This document shows positions 50,708-62,080 of a stretch of 64,000 nt of DNA, one piece after another. The stretch spans positions 141,858-205,857 of the forward strand of contig CAADGE010000046.1 of assembly GCA_900696465.1 (NCBI GenBank), read 5' to 3'. The notes under the pieces were generated by a model. The model was given only the letters and a program-made list of their open reading frames with translations. It searched no databases and was not told the origin of the DNA. The translations under genes and the position numbers were made by a program. This DNA comes from an uncultured Planctomycetota bacterium (GTDB taxonomy: Bacteria; Planctomycetota; Phycisphaerae; UBA1845; UTPLA1). The stretch's first letter is position 1. The number at the start of each line of letters is the position of its first letter.

Positions 50708-50836
50708 CGCTGATGCAACAACGTCGGCATTGATCGAGCGTCACCGCCGATGCATTCAGCGACAATCGGTTGGATTCGATGTCCCGCTACTGATAGAATG
50801 ATTGTTTCGCGAGCTGTCCGACTGGTGGGAGTTCCA

Positions 50837-53332
50837 TTGAAGTTTATCCGCATACATCTGGCCGCCCTGTGTCTGCTTGCCGGCTGCTCCATGCCGGCTC
50901 CGCCATCTGCATCGCTCGCACCGTCATCGGACACGGCGTCCGCGCGGTCGATGCGCGTGCCACCGGAAGGAGCGCCACTCGAGCGGGCCACCAACCCGGA
51001 CGAGGCGGCGAGATGGCGCCGACTCATCCGACAGGATGAGCACGGCGAAATCGCTCCCGATGCGCTGCACCGCGCGCTCGCGCAGCGGCGGGCCATTCTC
51101 GAACAGGCCGTTGCGCGGGGCGGACAGCGCATCGCCGGAATTGATCCGGCCAACTGGGTGGAACGCGGCCCGCGCAATGTCGGCGGGCGCAGCCGCTCGC
51201 TCGTGGTTGATCCGACCAACCCGAATCGTTTGCTGGCCGGCAGCGTCAGCGGTGGTATCTGGGTCAGCGAAAATGCCGGATCGTCCTGGTCTCCGGTGGA
51301 CGACGGCCTGCCGAATCTCGCGATCGGCTGCATGACCATCGACCCGAACAATCCAAACATTCTCTATGCGGGCACCGGCGAAGGATTCTTCAACGGAGAT
51401 GCAATCGGCGGGACCGGCATTTACAAATCGACCGACGGCGGGCAGAGCTGGTCCCTGCTTGCGTCGACGGCATCCTGGGACAATGTCTGCCGCATCGCCG
51501 TCTCGCCGACCAATTCAAACGTCGTCCTGGCATCGCGAAGGTACGGCGGCATCTACCGATCGACAAACGGCGGCGCCAGTTGGACGCTCCGGCTCAACGC
51601 GCAGGGCTCGTTCTACGTGGCCTTCGATCCGACGGACAGCAACAAGGCCGTTGCCCATGTCATCGACTACGACTGGGGACTCGGCGACTGGTATCACCGG
51701 GCGGTCTATTCGACCAACGGCGGCTTCACCTGGACAACGGCCTCCGGCGACATGAGCAGTCAGGTCGGCTTCGGCTCGCGCATCGAGCTGGCCTACGCGC
51801 CAAGCAGTCCGAACATCGTTTATGCCTCGAGCGCCACGGGCGGCGGCCGCATCTGGAAGTCGACGAACGGCGGACAGTCCTATTTACTCCAGACCGTCAG
51901 CGGCAGTTCCAGTGTGAGCTGGTACGCCAATCCCCTCTGGGTGGACCCGACGAATCCGGACTTCCTCGTCACCGGCGGATACAACTTCTATAAGAGCACG
52001 AACGGCGGTGTTTCTCTTTCGCAGATTTCCGACGGTTACATCATGACGATTCAGCCGCACGTCGACATGCACGCCATCGTGCACGACCCGGGCTTCGACG
52101 GCATCACGAACCGGCGCGTGTACGTCTGTACCGATGGCGGCGTCTGGAAGACAGAGAACATCTACACGGCCTCCACCACAGGTGGTTGGCAGAATCTCGA
52201 CGTCGACTACCGCACGACGCAGTACTACGGCGCGGCGGGCGACGGCACAACCGGCCTGATCATCGGCGGCACGCAGGACAACGGCACGCTGCGGCTGACC
52301 GCTGGCTCGGACCAGGGCCATCTCATGTTCGGCGGCGACGGCGGCTTTTGCGCCATCGACTGGGAGAATCCCAACTTCTGCTACGGCGAGTACATCAATC
52401 TGCGGATCGTCCGCTCGACCAACGGTGGGCTGTCGGCCGGCTACATCACCAACGGCCTCGGCGATGCCGGCGGCTCGGCCAATTTCATCGCACCGTTCAT
52501 TCTCGACCCCAACAACCCGGCGCGGATTCTTGCAGGCGGATTGCGACTCTGGCGATGCCCGAATGCGCGGATCGCGTCGTTTCTGCTGTCGTGGCAGCAG
52601 ATCCGGCCGGCGGGCACGGACCACATCAGTGCCATCGCCGTGGCGCCCGGAAATCCCAACATCATCTGGATCGGGCAGAATAACGGCGAAGTTCATCGGA
52701 CCCTCAACGGCACCGCCGCTTCACCCGTCTGGGAGCCGATCGACAACAATGGCGCGCCGGACCCCCTGCCGAATCGTTATGTGACGCGCATCGTGATCGA
52801 CCCGGACGACCATGACGTGGTCTTTGTCACCTTCGGCGGCTTTTCCGCCGCCAATCTCTGGGCCACGGCAGACGGTGGCGGCACGTTCGTTCCGCTGTCG
52901 GGTCTCGTGCCAAATCAGTTGCCGGCCGCTCCCATCCGCGGATTCGCCCGACACCCGCGTAAGGCGGACTGGCTCTATGCTGGCACGGAAGTGGGCATCT
53001 TCGCGAGTGAGGATCGCGGCGCGTCCTGGACGACAACGCACACCGGACCGTCGGCAGTCAGCGTCGATGAGCTGGTTTTCATGCACAACAGTGAAATGCT
53101 TCTGGCAGCCACCCACGGGCGCGGTATCTACACCATTGCCGTGCCCGCCTGCCTGCTGCTGGGCGATGTCAATCAGGACGGCATTCTCGATGGTGCCGAC
53201 GTGGAAGGGTTTGTCCGCGCGAAACTGGGTGCGCCGCTTCCGCAGGACGAAGAAACCTGTGCGGACTACCTGACCGGCACGCTGGAAGGGGACACGCTGC
53301 TCTTTGTTAACGATCTGCTCGCATCACAGTAA
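50837..53332 (+). CDS. BNR/sortilin-type beta-propeller lipoprotein with dockerin-like end
   Basis: A TTG at 50837, with TGGGAG five bases ahead, gives MKFIRIHLAALCLLAGC, a lipoprotein signal with the lipidated Cys at residue 17. This explains the N-terminus better than the ATG at 50750. The 831-residue protein contains repeated BNR/Asp-box blades such as GIYKSTDGGQSWSL and GIYRSTNGGASWTL, and IWVSENAGSSWSPVDDG near residue 140, a sortilin/VPS10-like propeller. Near residue 775 it has GDVNQDGILDGADVEGFVRA, a dockerin-like EF-hand motif common in planctomycete surface proteins. The protein probably displays a propeller for carbohydrate or protein binding; enzymatic activity is not indicated. 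Confidence 0.82.
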   Translation: MKFIRIHLAALCLLAGCSMPAPPSASLAPSSDTASARSMRVPPEGAPLERATNPDEAARWRRLIRQDEHGEIAPDALHRALAQRRAILEQAVARGGQRIAGIDPANWVERGPRNVGGRSRSLVVDPTNPNRLLAGSVSGGIWVSENAGSSWSPVDDGLPNLAIGCMTIDPNNPNILYAGTGEGFFNGDAIGGTGIYKSTDGGQSWSLLASTASWDNVCRIAVSPTNSNVVLASRRYGGIYRSTNGGASWTLRLNAQGSFYVAFDPTDSNKAVAHVIDYDWGLGDWYHRAVYSTNGGFTWTTASGDMSSQVGFGSRIELAYAPSSPNIVYASSATGGGRIWKSTNGGQSYLLQTVSGSSSVSWYANPLWVDPTNPDFLVTGGYNFYKSTNGGVSLSQISDGYIMTIQPHVDMHAIVHDPGFDGITNRRVYVCTDGGVWKTENIYTASTTGGWQNLDVDYRTTQYYGAAGDGTTGLIIGGTQDNGTLRLTAGSDQGHLMFGGDGGFCAIDWENPNFCYGEYINLRIVRSTNGGLSAGYITNGLGDAGGSANFIAPFILDPNNPARILAGGLRLWRCPNARIASFLLSWQQIRPAGTDHISAIAVAPGNPNIIWIGQNNGEVHRTLNGTAASPVWEPIDNNGAPDPLPNRYVTRIVIDPDDHDVVFVTFGGFSAANLWATADGGGTFVPLSGLVPNQLPAAPIRGFARHPRKADWLYAGTEVGIFASEDRGASWTTTHTGPSAVSVDELVFMHNSEMLLAATHGRGIYTIAVPACLLLGDVNQDGILDGADVEGFVRAKLGAPLPQDEETCADYLTGTLEGDTLLFVNDLLASQ

Positions 53333-53413: not shown

Positions 53414-54655
53414 TCATGATCGCAGTCGCTGGCCATCCGAGAGCTTGTCGAGGCCGTCCGCGACGATCGACTGACCCGGCGAGAGTCCACTGAGGACCTC
53501 AATCTGATTGCCCACCTGGCGACCCAGGGTCAACTGCGTCGCACGCAACCGCCCGCCCTCGGCGACGAAGGCCCGGCCGCCATTTCCGGAGCCGTCGCGC
53601 TGGCAGGCGCTGGTGGGAATCCAGATGCCGGTACCTGCTGAGCTTGAATCGCCCTTCGTGTCATCCACCAGGAATGAGACCTGTGCAGACCCCTCGACGC
53701 GGAGGAACTCGTCCGGGTTCTCGATGCGCACTTTGACCTGAACGGTGGCCTTGGAATAATTCGCGCCGGGGTCCAGCCACATAACACGGCCTTGATAGCG
53801 GCGATCCTTGTAGGCATCCGGAATAACCGTGCAGGCAAGACCCTGGCGAATGCGGGCGATGTCCAACTCGCTGATGTCGACTTCAACGCGGAGGCGCGTC
53901 ATGTCGGCAATGGTGCAGAGTTGAGCATTGGCAATCGCGCCACGGCCACCCTCGGCGGCCACAAAGTCACCGACTTCGACGTTGCGTTCGAGGATCACAC
54001 CGGCGATCGGCGCGAGTACCTCGCAATCCGTCAAGGCCTTCTGTGCCCAGCGCAGGGCGGCTTCGGCGGCCGCTACGCGAGCCTGGGCTTCTTCATAGTC
54101 ACGGCGGGCCTCTGCGTACTCAATCTCCGGCGCGGCGTCCGTCTCGTGCAGTTTCTCGATCCGGCGGAAGTTGATCTCCTGATAGCGAAGACTGGCCTGT
54201 GCCTGCTCAAGTTGCGCGGCGGCCTGATCGCGCTGGGCCTCGTAGATGACATCTTCGATTCGTGCCAGGACCTGACCTTCCTTGACCCGGTCGCCCTGTT
54301 CGAAACGAAGTTCAACGATCTGCCCGGAGACTTTTGTATTCACCAGTACCTTGTGGTCGGCGACGATCTTGCCGGTCGCGGTCAGCACCGGCATCGGCTG
54401 CGACACATCGCGCGCCGTGACCGTCACGAGACGGATCTCGGAGGCAGCGGCGGCAGCATCTCCCAGCGGGCCGATCTTCTGCGCGCCGATATAGCCAAGC
54501 CACGCGAGCAAGCCGATGGTCACGACAGCAAGCAGCCAGCGCAGCGGACGGCGGCCGACGGTCGACGTGGAAGGCGCCTGAGCCGCCATAGGGCGCTGCT
54601 CTTTGGGAATGCTCAGACTTCGTAGTTGAGCACGGATGTCAGGTCGTGTTGCCAT
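53414..54655 (-). CDS. Membrane fusion protein of the four-permease ABC exporter
   Basis: ATG at 54655 (MATRPDIRAQLRSLSIPKEQ) gives 413 residues. A cytoplasmic N-terminus of about 35 residues precedes a transmembrane helix (RWLLAVVTIGLLAWLGYIGA). The lipoyl and helical hairpin domains follow (about 80-230), with VLVNTKVSGQIVELRFEQGD and VLAPIAGVILERNVEVGDFV, then a beta-barrel domain. This is the HlyD/MacA fusion-protein design. It would span the periplasm between ABC permeases and an outer-membrane channel. It is the last gene of the cluster, 141 bases after the first A-type permease. No outer-membrane factor gene is nearby. Confidence 0.9.
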   Translation of the reverse strand: MATRPDIRAQLRSLSIPKEQRPMAAQAPSTSTVGRRPLRWLLAVVTIGLLAWLGYIGAQKIGPLGDAAAAASEIRLVTVTARDVSQPMPVLTATGKIVADHKVLVNTKVSGQIVELRFEQGDRVKEGQVLARIEDVIYEAQRDQAAAQLEQAQASLRYQEINFRRIEKLHETDAAPEIEYAEARRDYEEAQARVAAAEAALRWAQKALTDCEVLAPIAGVILERNVEVGDFVAAEGGRGAIANAQLCTIADMTRLRVEVDISELDIARIRQGLACTVIPDAYKDRRYQGRVMWLDPGANYSKATVQVKVRIENPDEFLRVEGSAQVSFLVDDTKGDSSSAGTGIWIPTSACQRDGSGNGGRAFVAEGGRLRATQLTLGRQVGNQIEVLSGLSPGQSIVADGLDKLSDGQRLRS

Positions 54656-54796
54656 GACACTCGATTCTAGCCGGACGGGCTTCTGCATGCAGGGCCGCCG
54701 AGATCATGAACCATTTCCGGCCAACGGCGGACCTCGCCGCAGGTGCCACTCCACGCCGCCGGTGCAGATTCTGCACCGTTGTATCGGTCCTCGGAA

Positions 54797-55969
54797 TCAG
54801 GCCTTCCGCAAGGCCTCGATGATCCGGGTGCGGGAAGCCCGCACGGCCGGGGCCAAGCCACCGAAGAGACCGACGAGGGTGGAAAGCCCCAGCGCCGACA
54901 GGATGATCTCCGGAGTCACGCGAAGTTCATATGCGAGGACCGTCCAAGTCGTGTCGGAGAGAAAGTCCTGGCGGGACCCGTCGACGCTCAGACTGACGGC
55001 GATGCCGACGAGGCAGGCCGTCAGCGTGATAAGCAGGGATTCCACCAGGAAAGAAGTCACGATCGAACGCCGCGAAAAGCCGATGGTGCGCAGCATGGCG
55101 ATCTCGCGGCGCCGACTGTCAACCGAAGCGTACATCGTGTTGGCCACGGCGAAGATGGCGCCGACGCTCATGATTCCGATAAGGATCGATGTGAGCAGGA
55201 CGATCTGGCGGGTCTTCGTCGATAGATCGTCGTAATAATCGACCTCCGTGCGGGCGTTCATTCGCACAGCGGGGCCCTTGATGTAGCGGATGGCTTCCTC
55301 CGCTCGAGCCGGGTCCTCCAACCGGACGGCGATGCTGGAAACAAAGCGGAAATTGTGCGCATCGGCGATCATGGTTCTGCCGGACCAGATTTCGCTCTCC
55401 AGCGCGCCTCCTGCCGCCTCGAAGACGCCGACCACTTTGAACACGCGATTGGTTGAACGGCCGAGCATCACTTCGCCGCCGACGTGCAGGTTCTGATAGC
55501 GGTCGCGCGCCTGTACGCCGACGATCACTTCCTGTGCCCCGTCTTCGAAGAGCCGCCCTTCGATGAGCTTGACCTCGGGATGCACGTCGAAGGCAACACG
55601 ATCAACACCGCGAATCGCGACATTCGCCGGGGTGCCATCCGGCCCGATCCGTGGGACGGAGGTTTGCACGCACAGCTCCGGGCTGAGAAGCAACTGCCCA
55701 CTCGAATCCGTTGCGATGCCGGGCGTCTGGACGATCCGGCCCGCCTCATCGGGGTAGATGATGCTTGTGCTCTCCGCGGTGGCACCGGTCTTGAGGACGA
55801 GGACATTCTGCGGCCATCCGCTGGCACGAAGAGATGCGCGGATGCCCGCAGCGAAGGAGAGCAGCACACACAGCACGGCCACGACCACCGTGACGACGAA
55901 GAACGTCAGCGAGGTGCTCAAGCGTCGCACGAGCAGGTTGCGAAAGTTGTAGGTCAGCGGTAGTGCCAT
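54797..55969 (-). CDS. FtsX/MacB-type ABC permease, type A (copy 2)
   Basis: The 390-residue protein begins MALPLTYNFRNLLVRRLSTS, with a transmembrane helix (about residues 18-40) and a large periplasmic MacB-PCD-like domain (about 45-250). Three C-terminal helices follow, as in FtsX, LolC/E and MacB permeases. It is clearly similar to the permease at 57275-58459: matching stretches include VLKTGATAES/VLKSGATAES and LLLSPELCVQ/VLVSPEMMVQ. The C-terminal RRREIAMLRTIGFSRRSIVT motif is FtsX-like. It should pair with a B-type permease and the shared ATPase. Confidence 0.9.
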   Translation of the reverse strand: MALPLTYNFRNLLVRRLSTSLTFFVVTVVVAVLCVLLSFAAGIRASLRASGWPQNVLVLKTGATAESTSIIYPDEAGRIVQTPGIATDSSGQLLLSPELCVQTSVPRIGPDGTPANVAIRGVDRVAFDVHPEVKLIEGRLFEDGAQEVIVGVQARDRYQNLHVGGEVMLGRSTNRVFKVVGVFEAAGGALESEIWSGRTMIADAHNFRFVSSIAVRLEDPARAEEAIRYIKGPAVRMNARTEVDYYDDLSTKTRQIVLLTSILIGIMSVGAIFAVANTMYASVDSRRREIAMLRTIGFSRRSIVTSFLVESLLITLTACLVGIAVSLSVDGSRQDFLSDTTWTVLAYELRVTPEIILSALGLSTLVGLFGGLAPAVRASRTRIIEALRKA

Positions 55970-56053
55970 TTTCGCTCACGCACACAGTCAGCGTACAGGT
56001 CGCATTCAATACACATCCGATGTTGGCCGCGCAGGCGCACGGTGTGACCGCGC

Positions 56054-57238
56054 TCACTCGAGACTTCGCAGGGCAGACACCACCTTCATCCTCACGGCCA
56101 GCCAGGCAGGCCACAAGGCGGCAACAATCCCGATGAGCAGTGCCATACCGACGGCCTTGATGCACGTGGACGGCGCGATTTCAAGCGTCTGAATCAGCGG
56201 AATCGTGATGTTGCGTATCGGCGTATAGGTAAAAAGCACAAAAGGCACACTCGCCCCTACCAGCCCCCCGACGGCACAAAGAAGGAGACTCTCCGTTTGT
56301 ATCAGTGAGAAGGCGAACGCAGAACCGAAACCGAGCGACTTGAGCGTCGCTACCTCGTTCGTCCGATCGCGGAAATTCATGCTCATCGTGTTGGTCGCGG
56401 CCATCACGGCAACAAAGACGGTCAGGGCAGCGAGGATCGTCAGATTTCGCGGCAGGTTGAACTGCTGGGTGACGAATTCGTTCATGAAAGTTTTTTCGTC
56501 GAGCGTGCGCGTCTCATCAAGCGAGCCGGCGAACTGGGCGTCGATGGCTCCGCGAAAATGATCCAGGTCTTCGCGAGAGGCGCACTTCACGAAGAAGAAA
56601 GTGACATTGCCCGACGGGGCGCCGTACTTCTTCAGCTCCTCCTCCAGGTAGTCCCGCCGGCACCAGTTGGTCACGAAGTCCTGCGCATTTTCCAGGGTAG
56701 AGACGATTTGAAACTCGATCAGCTTGTACGGCGGCACCGACGGGAAGATCGTGATCCGATCGCCCACCTTCCATCCCATCTCCCGCGCCGTACCGCGGCC
56801 GACCATGATCGCCTGCTTGTTCCGGAGCCAGGCATCCACCTCCTCGTCGGTCAGTTGATGCTCGGGAAAACTGGCGATGAACGTGTCGTGATCGACGGCC
56901 AGCGTCGAGAGCGGCATGGGGTCGTTCTCGCGCTGTCCACCGATGTACCGCAGACCACAGACGGAGATAAGACGGGTCTTCTCCGGGTCCAGGGCCTCGA
57001 TCTTGCGGCGATGGCCTTCTGGCAATGGATTGATGATCGACGTGCGCTGCGTGACGGCGAGCCGAAGCTGCCGGGCCGAGTTGTCGAGAAAGTTCTCAAA
57101 GCCGTCCACGACGGCCATCGACAGCACGTAGATCATGATCGGCAGCGCCACGGCCGCCGACGTCAGGCCGGACCGCAGCGGATTGCGCGTCAGGTTGCGA
57201 TAGAGATAAATGAGTCGAAGCGGCAAAGCGAGTTTCAT
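56054..57238 (-). CDS. FtsX/MacB-type ABC permease, type B (copy 2)
   Basis: The 394-residue permease begins MKLALPLRLIYLYRNLTRNP, with one N-terminal helix, a periplasmic domain and three C-terminal helices. FRDRTNEVATLKSLGFGSAF is the FtsX-core motif before the C-terminal helices. It is related to the permease at 58529-59698: IINPLPEGHRRKIEALDPEK matches [20 protein letters not shown] in it. It therefore represents the second kind of subunit of a presumably heterodimeric ABC exporter. The gap to its neighbours is 84 and 36 bases. Confidence 0.9.
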   Translation of the reverse strand: MKLALPLRLIYLYRNLTRNPLRSGLTSAAVALPIMIYVLSMAVVDGFENFLDNSARQLRLAVTQRTSIINPLPEGHRRKIEALDPEKTRLISVCGLRYIGGQRENDPMPLSTLAVDHDTFIASFPEHQLTDEEVDAWLRNKQAIMVGRGTAREMGWKVGDRITIFPSVPPYKLIEFQIVSTLENAQDFVTNWCRRDYLEEELKKYGAPSGNVTFFFVKCASREDLDHFRGAIDAQFAGSLDETRTLDEKTFMNEFVTQQFNLPRNLTILAALTVFVAVMAATNTMSMNFRDRTNEVATLKSLGFGSAFAFSLIQTESLLLCAVGGLVGASVPFVLFTYTPIRNITIPLIQTLEIAPSTCIKAVGMALLIGIVAALWPAWLAVRMKVVSALRSLE

Positions 57239-57274
57239 CCGTTACACAATCGGTATGTATTTATGTCGTGGCGT

Positions 57275-58459
57275 TCAGGGTTCGCGTAGCGCTGTGACCA
57301 CCTGCATCCGCGCGGCGCGAAGCGCCGGTACGAGGGCGCCGATCACCCCGACCACAACCACGAGACCCAGGGCTTTGGCAATCAGCAGCGGCGTCATCTG
57401 TATCTTGAATGCCATCGTTGTAAATGTCGTTGCCCCGAACATGTCCTTCGTGTTTCCGACGGCCTGCAGCCAGGCCCAGCAGGCCACGCACCCGAGCATA
57501 CCTCCCACCAGGGCGAGCATGACCGCCTCGATGACCAGACCGAGCAGAATCTGAGCACTGGAGAATCCGATCGTACGCAGCATGGCCAGCTCGCGCGATC
57601 GACCAGCGACAACGGAGAACATCGTATTGGCGATGGCGAACACTGCCGCCAGGGACATGATCGCGACGAGCAGGTAGGCCACAAATAAATAGACCTTCAT
57701 CAACCGCGATTGGGATTCCCAGTATTCTTCTTCGGTCTGCGCGGCAAGCTGGATCGCCGGGCCCTCGATCTGCCCAATGATCTGCCGGGCATCGGAGCCG
57801 TCGGCGAGCCGGAGATTGGCCGAGGAATACATCGTGCGGTTGTAGGAATTCATCAGCGAGGGCAGATAGCCCCAGATCTCACTCTCCATCGGACCGCCGT
57901 CGGCCGAAAAGTGACCCACGACCTTGTAAGCACGATCCGCGCCATAACCCAGATTGATCGTGTCGCCGATCTGAAGACCGGCGAACTGCTGTGCTGCGGC
58001 CAGCCCGACGATGACCTCCCGTTCGGCCGTGGAAAAGATCCGCCCCAGCGGGCGGATATTCGGATGAATCCGGAAGGCGTCCAGCGTGACGCCGCGGACG
58101 GCCACGTTGGCATTGGTGCGACCGCCGTCCCGCAGGCGCGGCAGCGATACCTGCACCATCATCTCGGGGCTCACGAGCACCTGGCCGGTCGCTTCGTCGC
58201 GGGCGACGTTCGTCACCTGACTGAGTTTGTTGTATTCGTCGACCGGGATGGCGCTGTTGCTCTCGGCGGTCGCACCGCTCTTGAGGACGATCAGCTTGTG
58301 CGGATCTCGTGCGACGGACAGGGAGTGCTGAAGTGACTCGGAAAAGCCGAGCATGTACGCGAACACGGAGACGACCGACGTGATGACCAGGACGGTCAGC
58401 ACGGTTGTGGTCTTCCGCACGAAGAGATTCCGCCAGTGATAGGTCAGGGGCAGGGCCAT
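57275..58459 (-). CDS. FtsX/MacB-type ABC permease, type A (copy 1)
   Basis: The 394-residue permease starts MALPLTYHWRNLFVRKTTTV, nearly identical in layout to the copy at 54797-55969 (shared MALPLTY start, VLKSGATAES, VAVRGV). Its C-terminal region has RSRELAMLRTIGFSSAQILL, the conserved cytoplasmic-edge motif, and three hydrophobic helices. The gene is 36 bases from the B-type copy downstream and 69 bases from the B-type copy upstream, consistent with a duplicated A-B gene pair. Confidence 0.9.
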   Translation of the reverse strand: MALPLTYHWRNLFVRKTTTVLTVLVITSVVSVFAYMLGFSESLQHSLSVARDPHKLIVLKSGATAESNSAIPVDEYNKLSQVTNVARDEATGQVLVSPEMMVQVSLPRLRDGGRTNANVAVRGVTLDAFRIHPNIRPLGRIFSTAEREVIVGLAAAQQFAGLQIGDTINLGYGADRAYKVVGHFSADGGPMESEIWGYLPSLMNSYNRTMYSSANLRLADGSDARQIIGQIEGPAIQLAAQTEEEYWESQSRLMKVYLFVAYLLVAIMSLAAVFAIANTMFSVVAGRSRELAMLRTIGFSSAQILLGLVIEAVMLALVGGMLGCVACWAWLQAVGNTKDMFGATTFTTMAFKIQMTPLLIAKALGLVVVVGVIGALVPALRAARMQVVTALREP

Positions 58460-58528
58460 TCGTTAATCGTCACCGTCGTTCATCTCTGCGAAAGCAGGAC
58501 TGATGTTGCTGGTTAGGCCCCGACATAA

Positions 58529-59698
58529 TCATGCCACCTTTCGCAAGGCGTCGGTCGTCTGGAGTCGCATCGCCTGAAATGCGGGCCACAGGCCGGCGAC
58601 CACGCCCACGCAAAGGGCGATCGCCATCGAACCAATGACACCGAGTCGGGTCACCTCCAGCGCAATCATCGGGCCGATGCCGGTCAGCCGGATCGGCAAC
58701 AGCCAGAGCAGCACTGCGGCAGGTACGACCCCCAGCAGGGCACCGCCCATGGCCAGCATGATGCTCTCGGACAGCACGATCAGGAACACCCGGCCGGACT
58801 GAAACCCGATCGCCTTGAAGACCGCCAGCTCCCGGGTGCGTTCGCGAAAGCTCATCATCATCGCGTTTCCGGCGACCAGGGCGACGATGACCACGACGAC
58901 CATGGCCATCGTCTGCATGAGTCCCGGGATGTTTCCCATCGCCTGCGTGAAGTTCGCCACGAAGGCGTTTTCATCCTCGGACTTGGTCTCGTCAGGACTG
59001 TTGGCAAACAGTGCGTCGATATCCTGCTGAAGTGTGCGCAGACCTTCGGCACTCTTGCACTTGATCCAGAAGATGTTGCAGCGCGCGTCGTCCACGCCCG
59101 CGTCCTTCATGGATTCGACGAGATAATCACGCCGGAACCAGAAGAAGTTTGCCCGCTCGCGGTTCTCGACGATCTTGACGATGTTGAACTCGAGCTGCAG
59201 ATACGGCGGCACGGTGCTGACCAGTGTGACGCGATCGCCCTGCTTCCATCCGTAGGTATCCACCGGGTTTCGACCGACGACGCATGCGCGACGATCGCGC
59301 TGCCATGCCTCGATGTCCTGCGCGGTCATGCCGACGTCGCTGTAGACCAGCGGAAACGTGTCGGGGTCCCCCGCGATGCTGGTCAGCGTGTTCTGCGTAT
59401 CGGGTACGCGCCCGCCGAACCAGCGCATGCCGCAAACGGCTGCGATTCGGCGGCGATCCGGATCGAGGGCTTCGATTTTGGAACGCATGCCCGCGGGAAG
59501 CGGATTGGTCAGCGTGGTCTTGTGATGGACGCCGAGGCGCAGCTCCTTCTCCATATCCGCTGAGATCTGTGCCAGGGCCACGACAAAAGAAATGGCCGCG
59601 ACAAAGACCGCCATCGGCAGCGCGAAGGCAACCGCCGTCAGCACTACCCGCAGCGTGTTCCGCCGCAGGTTCTGCATCAGCACATAAGTCAGCGTCAC
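58529..59698 (-). CDS. FtsX/MacB-type ABC permease, type B (copy 1)
   Basis: The 389-residue permease starts [20 protein letters not shown] and has the MacB-like periplasmic domain and C-terminal three-helix block preceded by [20 protein letters not shown]. It resembles the copy at 56054-57238 throughout (for example ISVCGLRYIGG vs [11 protein letters not shown]). It begins 16 bases after the ATPase stop, so it is the first permease translated after the ATPase. Confidence 0.9.
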
Positions 59699-59714
59699 CG
59701 GCCGCCCCCCGCTC

Positions 59715-60440
59715 TCAGGAAACCATGGCCGCGGCGCCGCGCGGTCTTGCCGGATTGAGTTCTTCTCGATCGAGCACGCCTTTGTCGAGGTGGACGGTCC
59801 GCTGCCCGTGCGAAGCTGCCCGCGGATCGTGCGTCACCATGAGGATGGTCTTACCAAACTCACTGTTGAGCAGATTCAGAAGCTCCAGAATCTCCTCGGA
59901 AGTCTTGGCATCCAGATCGCCCGTCGGTTCGTCGGCCAGGATCACGTCCGGATCGGTAACGATGGCTCTTGCGATGGCAACGCGCTGCTCCTGGCCACCG
60001 GAGAGCTGGTTGGGCCGGTGATCGGCCCGGTCGGAGAGGCCGACGACCTCCAGCGCCGTCCTGACGCGTTCCTTCCGTTGTGACGAAGACATGCTGAACA
60101 AAAGAAGCGGCAACTCGACGTTCTGCGCCGCTGTCAGCACGGGCACAAGGTGGTACATCTGGAAGATGAAGCCGACGTGCCGGCTGCGCCACGCCGTCCG
60201 TTCGCGCTCGCTCATTTTTTCTAGATGAGCGTCGCCGACGCGCACGCTGCCGCCGGTGGCAGAATCGAGACCGCCGATCAGGTGCAGCAGGGTTGACTTG
60301 CCCGAGCCGCTGGGCCCCATCAGCACGACGAACTCGCCGGCGGCGATGGTGAGATCCAACCCTTCGAGGACAGGAATCTCAAGGCGATCCTTAAAGTAAA
60401 CCTTGCGAACTTTGCGCAACTCAATGTCAACGGTGCTCAT
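59715..60440 (-). CDS. ABC transporter ATP-binding protein (LolD/MacB/FtsE type)
   Basis: ATG at 60440 has GGGGAG five bases upstream and gives 241 residues. It contains Walker [10 protein letters not shown] (about 42-50), Q-loop Gln (about 94), signature [14 protein letters not shown] (146-159), Walker [11 protein letters not shown] and the switch His in MVTHD (about 204). The MxHL-like hydrophobic and Ser-rich layout ([11 protein letters not shown]) is that of LolD/MacB ATPases acting with FtsX-type permeases. It is the only ATPase visible for the four permeases that follow it on the same strand. Confidence 0.96.
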
Positions 60441-60630
60441 GGCTGCTCCCCGGGTGCCGCCCGGGGATGGGAGGCAAACCGTCGGCGGGATTGTATCGTC
60501 GTCGCCGGGAAACTTCACCGGGGGCGGCGCGTCATGGCCCTGAGTCGGTCATGACCCCAGCGGCAAATCGTGCAGCCGGCTGGACGAAGACGCCACTCCT
60601 GGAGTGGCCGGAGGCGCGTCATCATCGATG

Positions 60631-61929
60631 TCAATCATCATCTTCGTCCTCATCGTCATCGCTGCGTGGAGGGCGGCGCGAATCCGCGTCGGCAGGTCGC
60701 TCGGCACGGGTCGGTCGCTCGCCATCCGGCGGCTGAACGATGCGGTCGATGTGAGCGGTCAATCGATCCTTCGCAGACATGTAAACCGCCAGCTCCTCGT
60801 CGTCCACCTTCATCGAGCAGGCCTGACGGTAATAGAGCAACGCCTGGCGATAGTCCCCCATCAACTCGCTGACGATACCGAGGGCAAAGACGTTTTCCTG
60901 CCGCTTGGGCTTGCGAGCGTGGGCGGCGCGAAAGATTTCGAAAGCAGTCGCGTAGTCATCGGCGCGCAGGGCACGAATGCCGTCTTCGCCTTCGCTCTTG
61001 CCGATGACTTCGTAGGTATAAGCCACTCGCACCGGCGCGATACGGGAAACGAATTCCTGCGCTGCACGCTCAACCAGCTCACCGATGAAATAGTCCACCG
61101 GGTCGAGGTCCGCTTCGTCGATGCAGGTCCCGAAGAAGAAGTCCGGCCGCTTGCGGTCGCTCTTCTGGACAACCGGCGAGGCATGCTGAACGATGGCCCG
61201 CCCGGTCACCGCATCCACCAGACTGAAGGTGCATTGCACGGTCAGATGACGGCTGATCTCCTCGATGTCTCGCTGTGGCAGGTTGAAGGGCAGCGCGGGG
61301 CCGGCCGGCCGGCCTTGGGCACGGTAAGGATTCGGCGGTGCGCCGCCCGGACCTCGACGGAAACGCGGGTCACCGGATGGCGGTGGGGCGCCCGGCCCTC
61401 CGCCGAGCAGACCAACCCAGTCGATCTGCGAACGCCGGCTCCGCTGGTAGTCGATGCTCAGGTTGATCCGGCTCATGATGAGCCCGTCAACCGCGAGGAT
61501 GCGGCCGGCGCGCTCCAGTGCATCTCCCTCGACGATTCCGACGAGCTGAAGGTCCTGCTCAGCGAGAATCTGCTTCGTCGCGCGGCGCTGCACGATCTTC
61601 AGGGCATCGGGCCGGTCATTCGCTGCGCTCTGTAGCATCGCTTCGATCAGATCCGCGGCGATGTTCGACCATTTCTTCTTGCGAATGTCTTTGCGCTCTT
61701 CGTCGCTGTCGACGCCGGAATCGATGACTGCAACCGCGCGAATGTTCTCGGGGAGCTTCTGCGTCGGCGCCAGAACGTAACTGACTGTCACGTCCAACCG
61801 TTCCTTTGCAGTGGCGGTCGCAGACGGAATGACAGAAACCAGCGTGAACAGCATCACGGCGATGCCTGCGGGAATCGCGAATGGAAAACGTCTCGCCAAA
61901 ATCCTGCGGAATTGAGTCGAAGCGTGCAT
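60631..61929 (-). CDS. CsgG-like exported protein
   Basis: ATG at 61929 with GAGG eight bases upstream gives 432 residues; the longer reading has no support. An N-terminal signal helix (about residues 15-40) precedes a CsgG/LpoB-type domain: KIVQRRATKQILAEQDLQLV, GIVEGDALERAGRILAVDGL and GRAIVQHASPV. The middle has a Pro/Gly-rich insertion. The C-terminal part (about 330-420) is helical and TPR-like, ending in a run of Asp/Glu. CsgG relatives form or help outer-membrane secretion pores or activate cell-wall enzymes. It lies 190 bases ahead of the exporter ATPase on the same strand, which suggests a partner, but this is inference. Confidence 0.72.
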   Translation of the reverse strand: MHASTQFRRILARRFPFAIPAGIAVMLFTLVSVIPSATATAKERLDVTVSYVLAPTQKLPENIRAVAVIDSGVDSDEERKDIRKKKWSNIAADLIEAMLQSAANDRPDALKIVQRRATKQILAEQDLQLVGIVEGDALERAGRILAVDGLIMSRINLSIDYQRSRRSQIDWVGLLGGGPGAPPPSGDPRFRRGPGGAPPNPYRAQGRPAGPALPFNLPQRDIEEISRHLTVQCTFSLVDAVTGRAIVQHASPVVQKSDRKRPDFFFGTCIDEADLDPVDYFIGELVERAAQEFVSRIAPVRVAYTYEVIGKSEGEDGIRALRADDYATAFEIFRAAHARKPKRQENVFALGIVSELMGDYRQALLYYRQACSMKVDDEELAVYMSAKDRLTAHIDRIVQPPDGERPTRAERPADADSRRPPRSDDDEDEDDD

Positions 61930-62080
61930 GTCTGTTGCCTCTGTCCGGGTGTCGTCGGGCTCCGCGCGGAGCCCTGATGAGGGAGGACACCCATAGGATA
62001 GCAGACAGACACACGGCACGGCAGACAGGTTAGTGCAGATTCTCACTGGCCCGCAGCCGCCGATGGATCCCCACATCTAT

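Follow-up and report, generated by a model that had tools for sequence, protein, structure and literature searches.

Here we describe a six-gene array in a 64,000-nucleotide stretch of DNA (the window) of contig CAADGE010000046.1, which comes from an uncultured member of the Planctomycetota (GTDB lineage Phycisphaerae; UBA1845; UTPLA1). The array encodes one ATP-binding cassette (ABC) ATPase, four FtsX-type permeases that form two paralogous pairs, B1-A1 and B2-A2, and one membrane fusion protein (MFP). Sets of two, and in some genomes three, such pairs are genuine and represent an old, conserved variant within a known family of pumps. We put at roughly 0.6 the probability that two cognate heterodimers of the MacB/LolCDE, type VII kind share the one ATPase and the one MFP. 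The first-pass annotation of the window, made from the sequence alone, had raised the possibility that two heterodimeric exporters share an ATPase, and this is the reading that array context, ATPase counts and covariation support best; the sharing itself is what we infer from them.

An array of type VII transporter components

All six genes lie on the minus strand of the window, and the open reading frames (ORFs) with their translations give the transcription order ATPase-B1-A1-B2-A2-MFP, with intergenic gaps of 16-108 bases (Table 1). The first-pass annotation had located the array correctly and had this order right in its text, although its title gave it as A-B-A'-B'. Terminator-like sites between positions 53200 and 62400 were not above chance (6 found, against a mean of 6.2 in shuffles). 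The ATPase carries what we take to be a Walker motif, the signature LSGGQEQR and the Walker B motif VILADEP, the letters being read directly.

The FtsX-type C-terminal domain PF02687 was found above the Pfam cut-off in all four permeases, and MacB_PCD in three of the four. Models predicted with AlphaFold2 for two of the four, A2 and B2 (mean predicted local distance difference test scores of 90 and 88, respectively), contain a long helix, a mixed alpha/beta domain of about 200 residues and three long helices. As a predicted topology this corresponds to the type VII arrangement of four transmembrane helices, the first and second being separated by a large periplasmic domain. Foldseek matched both models to MacB, the Streptococcus pneumoniae structure 5xu1 and LolCDE with a probability of 1.00 and TM-scores of about 0.4-0.65; the best match of A2 was 5gko (MacAB-TolC), and LolE chains head the list for B2. 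Profiles of the A and B families likewise retrieve MacB, LolF, LolC/E, YtrF and FtsX among solved chains. By FtsX domain and, for A2 and B2, predicted topology and fold, the permeases belong to the type VII (MacB/FtsX superfamily) ABC transporters. None of the four permeases reaches the NCBIfam cut-offs of LolCE, MacB, DevC, ADOP or YbbP: they score 32-50 bits against the LolCE model (cut-off 362), 21-50 bits against MacB (cut-off 966) and 36-61 bits against the ADOP duplicated-permease model (about 800 positions, cut-off 622), and for DevC (cut-off 290 bits) a match of 24 bits is listed for B2 and none for the others. The best NCBIfam model of the ATPase, TIGR02211, gives 232 bits, under its cut-off of 308; the MFP scores 217 bits against TIGR01730 (RND_mfp, cut-off 94.9) and falls under the MacA cut-off.

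Duplication of the B-A unit

B1 and B2 are 38% identical over 382 residues aligned without a gap (E 2e-98) and A1 and A2 41% identical over 394 residues (E 7e-99), likenesses that are not due to chance; B1 and A1 share 32% identity over only 136 residues, all in the C-terminal FtsX part (E 3e-09). In trees of a chosen subset of sequences (38 B rows and 35 A rows), B1, B2, A1 and A2 each form a monophyletic clade with support of 99-100. B1 and B2 are sister clades (97/92, bootstrap/Shimodaira-Hasegawa-like approximate likelihood ratio test), as are A1 and A2 (84/73); the wider grouping that also takes in the order's single-pair relatives stands at 100/100. These relatives branch outside the two-pair clades (G664 and G522 in both trees, G447 in the B tree). 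The sister relationships of A1 with A2 and of B1 with B2 indicate that the B-A unit was doubled. Two earlier sets of trees likewise place B1 with B2 and A1 with A2. The later of them omitted L073 (from G305), used 11 chosen outside loci and dropped short matches; the first omitted L108 and L110, which are near-duplicates from the contigs of L074 and L068, and used 26 outside loci as representatives. The first-pass annotation had proposed the duplication, to be given up if the like permeases were not closest relatives or if extra ATPase genes always accompanied the cluster in related genomes. Neither came true, the closest relationship being borne out for the B proteins and, moderately, for the A proteins.

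A B-type match at E<=1e-20 was present in 125 of 294 sampled genomes of the phylum. Among 20 loci chosen from them, 16 have the order MFP-ATP-B-A, one is ATP-B-A with no MFP match, two are MFP-ATP-B-A-B and one is MFP-ATP-B-B-A-B. The last three (L102 and L103 of family f63, L104 of f67) have extra permeases, with a single A, around one ATPase and one MFP; they were picked for their several B matches and are no fair sample. Such loci indicate that, within the phylum, permeases have been added around a single ATPase on more than one occasion. A further 31 named loci (L114-L144) comprise 16 MFP-ATP-B-A, 11 MFP-ATP-A-B (Geomonas, Geobacter and Citrifermentans), one B-A-MFP-ATP and three cut or partial loci, none with more than one B or A. 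Across the sampled phylum genomes and the named loci, only the order of the window yielded the B-A-B-A form.

Conservation across the order

Matches at E<=1e-55 were found in 39 of 114 genomes of the order. Sorted by identity to B2 and by the trees, 32 have both pairs, three have pair 2 only, one has pair 1 only and three have only members of the outside subfamily; genomes with both pairs occur in four families of the order. The six genes form one cluster in 19 of the 32 genomes with both pairs (G000, the genome of the window, and G308, G309, G299, G294, G304, G305, G301, G298, G307, G380, G402, G501, G528, G510, G537, G634, G441 and G579), with 1.5 kb separating B2 from A2 in G537 and G634. 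A survey for this layout had been suggested in the first-pass annotation. In the pair-2-only genomes (G333, G590 and G555), ATPase-B2-A2-MFP stands alone. The pair-1-only case, G303, is a 75% complete metagenome-assembled genome (MAG) in which the contig ends 0.6 kb past A1.

Some of the remaining arrays are cut by contig ends (G622, G655 and G552), cut between A1 and B2 with the MFP elsewhere (G546), or apparently split in draft assemblies (G576 and G601). Seven are rearranged away from contig ends: in G452 the genes are spread over four contigs, 127-474 kb long, as ATPase, B1-A1, B2 and A2-MFP; in G365 ATP-B1-A1-B2, A2 and the MFP are found in three places; G513 has ATP-B1-A1 apart from B2-A2-MFP; the MFP is apart from the rest in G457, G525 and G516; and in G306 A2 is apart and the MFP lies 7 kb downstream. 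The gene set is largely still complete where it is scattered.

Three genomes (G307, G301 and G441) carry a third pair, B2'-A2' (L078, 8878-10185 and 7666-8838; L079; L191), whose proteins form a clade in both the A and the B tree with support of 99-100. No ABC ATPase or MFP match accompanies the third pair in the stretches read (7.7 kb in G301, 19.9 kb in G307 and 18.0 kb in G441).

At most one orthologous ATPase per two-pair genome

A search for the ATPase in 41 genomes (E<=1e-80) found exactly one match above 300 bits in 29 of the 32 two-pair genomes and two such matches in none; related genomes show no additional ATPases of this type. The other three are G622 and G655, whose arrays are cut at B1, and G576, with a 279-bit match and a contig-end fragment; their missing ATPases are likely contig-end losses. 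Each three-pair genome has one orthologous ATPase. Second, weaker matches in G309 and G555 (275 and 287 bits) are part of separate MFP-ATP-B-A systems in those genomes. In the scattered loci read, neither pair has a second ATPase match beside it, G306 excepted, where a weak match (138 bits) lies about 2.1 kb away from A2.

Covariation within cognate pairs

Distance matrices of the six proteins were compared in 23 of the 32 two-pair genomes, leaving out near copies (G305, G528 and G634), cut arrays (G552, G576, G622 and G655) and genomes in which the MFP was not read (G516 and G546); A1 of G452 and B2 of G457 were entered as partial sequences. Given the ATPase, the correlation was 0.69 for A1-B1 and 0.79 for A2-B2, against 0.40 for A1-B2 and 0.37 for B1-A2, a cognate-minus-cross difference of 0.35 (0.22-0.50 in 1000 resamplings of genomes). 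With the other four proteins held fixed, the cognate values were 0.57 (A1-B1) and 0.68 (A2-B2) and both cross values were -0.02. An earlier run with 21 genomes gave the same cognate pattern. Adjacency alone is inadequate as an explanation, because B2 sits between A1 and A2 yet tracks A2.

The predicted ATPase-facing coupling helix gives a divided picture. Between A1 and A2 it has 13 of 14 consensus residues in common and is the most conserved segment, whereas each shares 8-9 of 14 with single-pair A proteins; B1 and B2 have 7 of 14 in common, against 8-9 of 14 with single-pair B proteins. The predicted helix thus speaks half for and half against a common ATPase contact, and we rejected its conservation as proof of a shared ATPase, since it holds for the A side and not for the B side.

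Membrane fusion protein, neighbouring genes and cargo

Solved relatives of the MFP include CzcB- and MacA-type proteins. In an alignment of 16 MFPs (A6), the hairpin of the six proteins from this order is seven residues shorter per arm than that of nine of the other ten; L137, the remaining one, is longer. An MFP match and an A-type match occurred in the same 20 of 23 genomes. Three OEP (TolC-type) ORFs are present in the genome of the window, none of them in the window itself, and a tripartite assembly with a TolC-type channel is possible.

Table 1. Coordinates and assignments of the array genes and of the upstream gene in the window.
Feature	Coordinates	Strand	Remarks
ABC ATPase, LolD/DevA/MacB-type	59715..60518	minus	GTG start; likely start ATG at 60440; PF00005 7.2e-35
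Permease B1, FtsX-type, 389 aa	58529..59698	minus	PF02687 3.1e-12
Permease A1, FtsX + MacB_PCD, 394 aa	57275..58459	minus	Pfam; A2 paralogue
Permease B2, FtsX + MacB_PCD, 394 aa	56054..57238	minus	Pfam; B1 paralogue
Permease A2, FtsX + MacB_PCD, 390 aa	54797..55969	minus	Pfam; A1 paralogue
MFP, RND_mfp/MacA-like	53414..54688	minus	Likely start codon 12
Upstream protein (earlier 'CsgG-like')	60631..62076	minus	Weak TPR-like C-terminal matches; outside conserved unit

The likely ATPase start, at the boundary given in the first-pass annotation, lies in frame, 26 codons into the GTG frame, and the MFP start is an ATG favoured by the alignment of orthologues. The gene upstream of the ATPase had been called CsgG-like and a potential outer-membrane element; this was not supported, as its product matches no CsgG model in Pfam at E<=1 and shows only weak TPR similarity, and it is not conserved beside the ATPase. 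Among the loci read it adjoins the ATPase only in the window and in the genus mate G308, and G441 has a 26% identical relative about 5.7 kb away from its ATPase. We therefore rejected it as part of the export unit. On the other side, the array is adjoined by an 860-residue protein (50750-53332, plus strand) with repeats that we take to resemble the BNR/sortilin type and a C-terminal stretch presumably resembling dockerin. Conserved neighbours give no clue to the cargo: among 654 flanking ORFs of 29 loci, one cluster reaches three loci, two of them from the genus of the window.

We do not favour the six-gene set as a stand-in for a missing Lol system, since all 14 genomes searched, including three without the set, carry another LolCE-like frame. 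No match above the LolCE cut-off was found in these 14 genomes; in each, a long open frame has a C-terminal part that resembles LolCE and scores 107-130 bits, far below that cut-off (contig 9, 30589-31089, in the genome of the window, and similar in the 13 others). This frame may possibly represent a divergent Lol system of the order.

An in-frame TGA in the B-type permease of family f29

In family f29 of the phylum, the B-type (FtsX/MacB-like) permease gene carries a TGA in frame, immediately following a Cys codon and in one column at all seven loci read (L221-L227, from G068, G022, G193, G086, G120, G247 and G226, respectively). The surrounding sequence reads C-[TGA]-x-F-E-P-D-x-V-I-V-H-G, and the site falls within the predicted periplasmic domain, close to B2 position 104; all nine f29 matches listed in the B search of the phylum contain TGA. 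SelB is above its cut-off in all nine f29 genomes, and in 18 of 20 genomes searched overall. A stem-loop of conserved sequence, for which there is no covariation support, lies nine bases downstream of the TGA. A general code change is not favoured as an explanation, as TGG occurs four to six times in the same frame and TGA at one conserved column. The permease is a candidate Cys-Sec selenoprotein transporter. A term search for FtsX and MacB gave no match in the available main text of a 2026 review of prokaryotic selenoproteins (PMC13188914).

Discussion

According to the model that we favour, a heterodimeric B-A permease unit would have been duplicated once, early in this Phycisphaerae order, to give B1-A1 and B2-A2. 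Each pair would most likely form its own heterodimer and bind a dimer of the single ATPase, which would serve as a shared motor, and each would use the one MFP together with a TolC-type channel encoded elsewhere. Substrate would be pushed outward from the periplasmic side of the inner membrane by mechanotransmission, a step that we take, along with periplasmic-side substrate uptake, from the available sections of two family reviews (PMC5985334, PMC8277102). The later third pair, with no ATPase adjacent to it, probably draws on the same ATPase.

Several observations weigh against two independent pumps driven by one motor. The sister grouping of A1 and A2 is only moderately supported, and the only genome seen with pair 1 but not pair 2 is the MAG with the cut contig, an odd pattern for pumps that work fully independently. 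A1 of G452 and B2 of G457 span two reading frames, through decay or sequencing error. The cross-pair correlations given the ATPase alone are above chance (Mantel p 0.0015 for 0.40 and 0.013 for 0.37), the coupling helices of B1 and B2 have diverged, and with the rest fixed the ATPase is not clearly linked to any of the permeases (-0.03 to 0.18). Nor does the MFP show a preference: a link to pair 2 seen with 17 MFPs was gone with 23 (0.03, -0.16 to 0.25), and we rejected the idea that it is tied to that pair. Finally, there are dozens of ABC ATPase-like regions per genome (58 first-look candidates in that of the window), so that one of the pairs could draw on a different ATPase, and in several genomes only 63 of the ATPase candidates were scored.

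The distribution of pair 1 would suit a single large machine in which the heterodimers act together, pair 1 needing pair 2 and, for instance, handing cargo to it and the MFP or regulating them: pair 1 was seen alone in no genome where the absence of pair 2 can be trusted, and the set is largely retained even when its genes are scattered. We nevertheless consider such a machine rather unlikely, given that cross-pair correlation falls to about zero once the other proteins are fixed, that pair 2 occurs alone with the ATPase and MFP in three genomes, and that type VII transporters have two permease units per ATPase dimer in the available sections of the reviews (PMC5985334, PMC8277102). A related scheme, in which the ATPase is a hub that powers two or three non-interchangeable heterodimers, unlinked ones included, and pair 1 functions only with pair 2 as a two-stage machine, is unlikely in our judgement.

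Were the ATPase not shared, the local enzyme would drive one pair and another ABC ATPase of the genome the other. The many ATPases per genome, the B-side coupling helix and the lack of ATPase-permease covariance all lean that way, but both pairs lie in one array with the ATPase in 19 of 32 genomes, the A-side helix is nearly identical, and the scattered loci have no second ATPase match beside either pair apart from that in G306; we regard this arrangement as quite unlikely. Mixing of the subunits, with B1-A2 and B2-A1 dimers also forming and up to four exporters resulting, is highly improbable: the paralogous subunits are of similar length and the cross pairs do correlate given the ATPase alone, but that covariance vanishes when the other four proteins are fixed while the cognate signal stays, and B2' and A2' of the third pair arose together as a unit. 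Two cognate pairs around a common ATPase and MFP thus remain our preferred reading.

Available sections of one review list type VII permeases as homodimers, heterodimers or fused proteins (PMC5985334), and those of both reviews describe two permease units, that is one permease dimer, for each ATPase dimer (PMC5985334, PMC8277102), in agreement with the statement in the first-pass annotation that one permease pair or homodimer serves each ATPase dimer. The nearest counterparts are the single-pair MFP-ATP-B-A exporters of other Planctomycetota, of Geomonas and its relatives and of Pseudomonadota (L088-L107 and L114-L144). These have the same four protein types with one ATPase, and their B and A proteins are of the same families, those of the named loci being 24-35% identical to B2 and A2, but they have one B and one A, their MFP gene mostly comes first rather than last, and in nine of ten their MFP hairpin is seven residues longer per arm.

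MacAB-TolC resembles the array in providing the best structural match of A2 and, through MacA, a solved relative of the MFP, but MacB is a homodimer with a fused ATPase, whereas the window has a separate ATPase ORF and two paralogous B-A pairs. LolCDE shares the heterodimeric permease and separate ATPase dimer, and LolE is the top Foldseek match of B2; it differs in that the window permeases lie far below the LolCE cut-off and the array has two pairs and an MFP, whereas LolCDE works independently of an adaptor, without an MFP, in the available sections of the reviews (PMC5985334, PMC8277102). ADOP- and YbbP-type proteins also have multiplied FtsX-type units; the window, in contrast, has four separate short permeases far below both cut-offs. 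From DevBCA the array differs in that no permease reaches the DevC cut-off. The Borrelia BBJ23-29 export cluster was rejected as an instance of the same layout, as the available part of its report describes it as homodimeric (PMC13078400). Sharing of an ATPase has a precedent in MsmK, which serves several carbohydrate importers (PMC4519317, available part), although the window would encode a type VII exporter with paralogous cognate pairs. In the available open-licence PMC literature we found reviews and shared importer ATPases, and no title or opening of an abstract on a type VII layout with one ATPase and two pairs.

If the sharing is real, it would mean that the motor of this class of type VII exporters can be pooled, as it is in some importers. 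The genomes with pair 2 only, with scattered genes and with three pairs offer natural comparisons for the idea of a shared ATPase.

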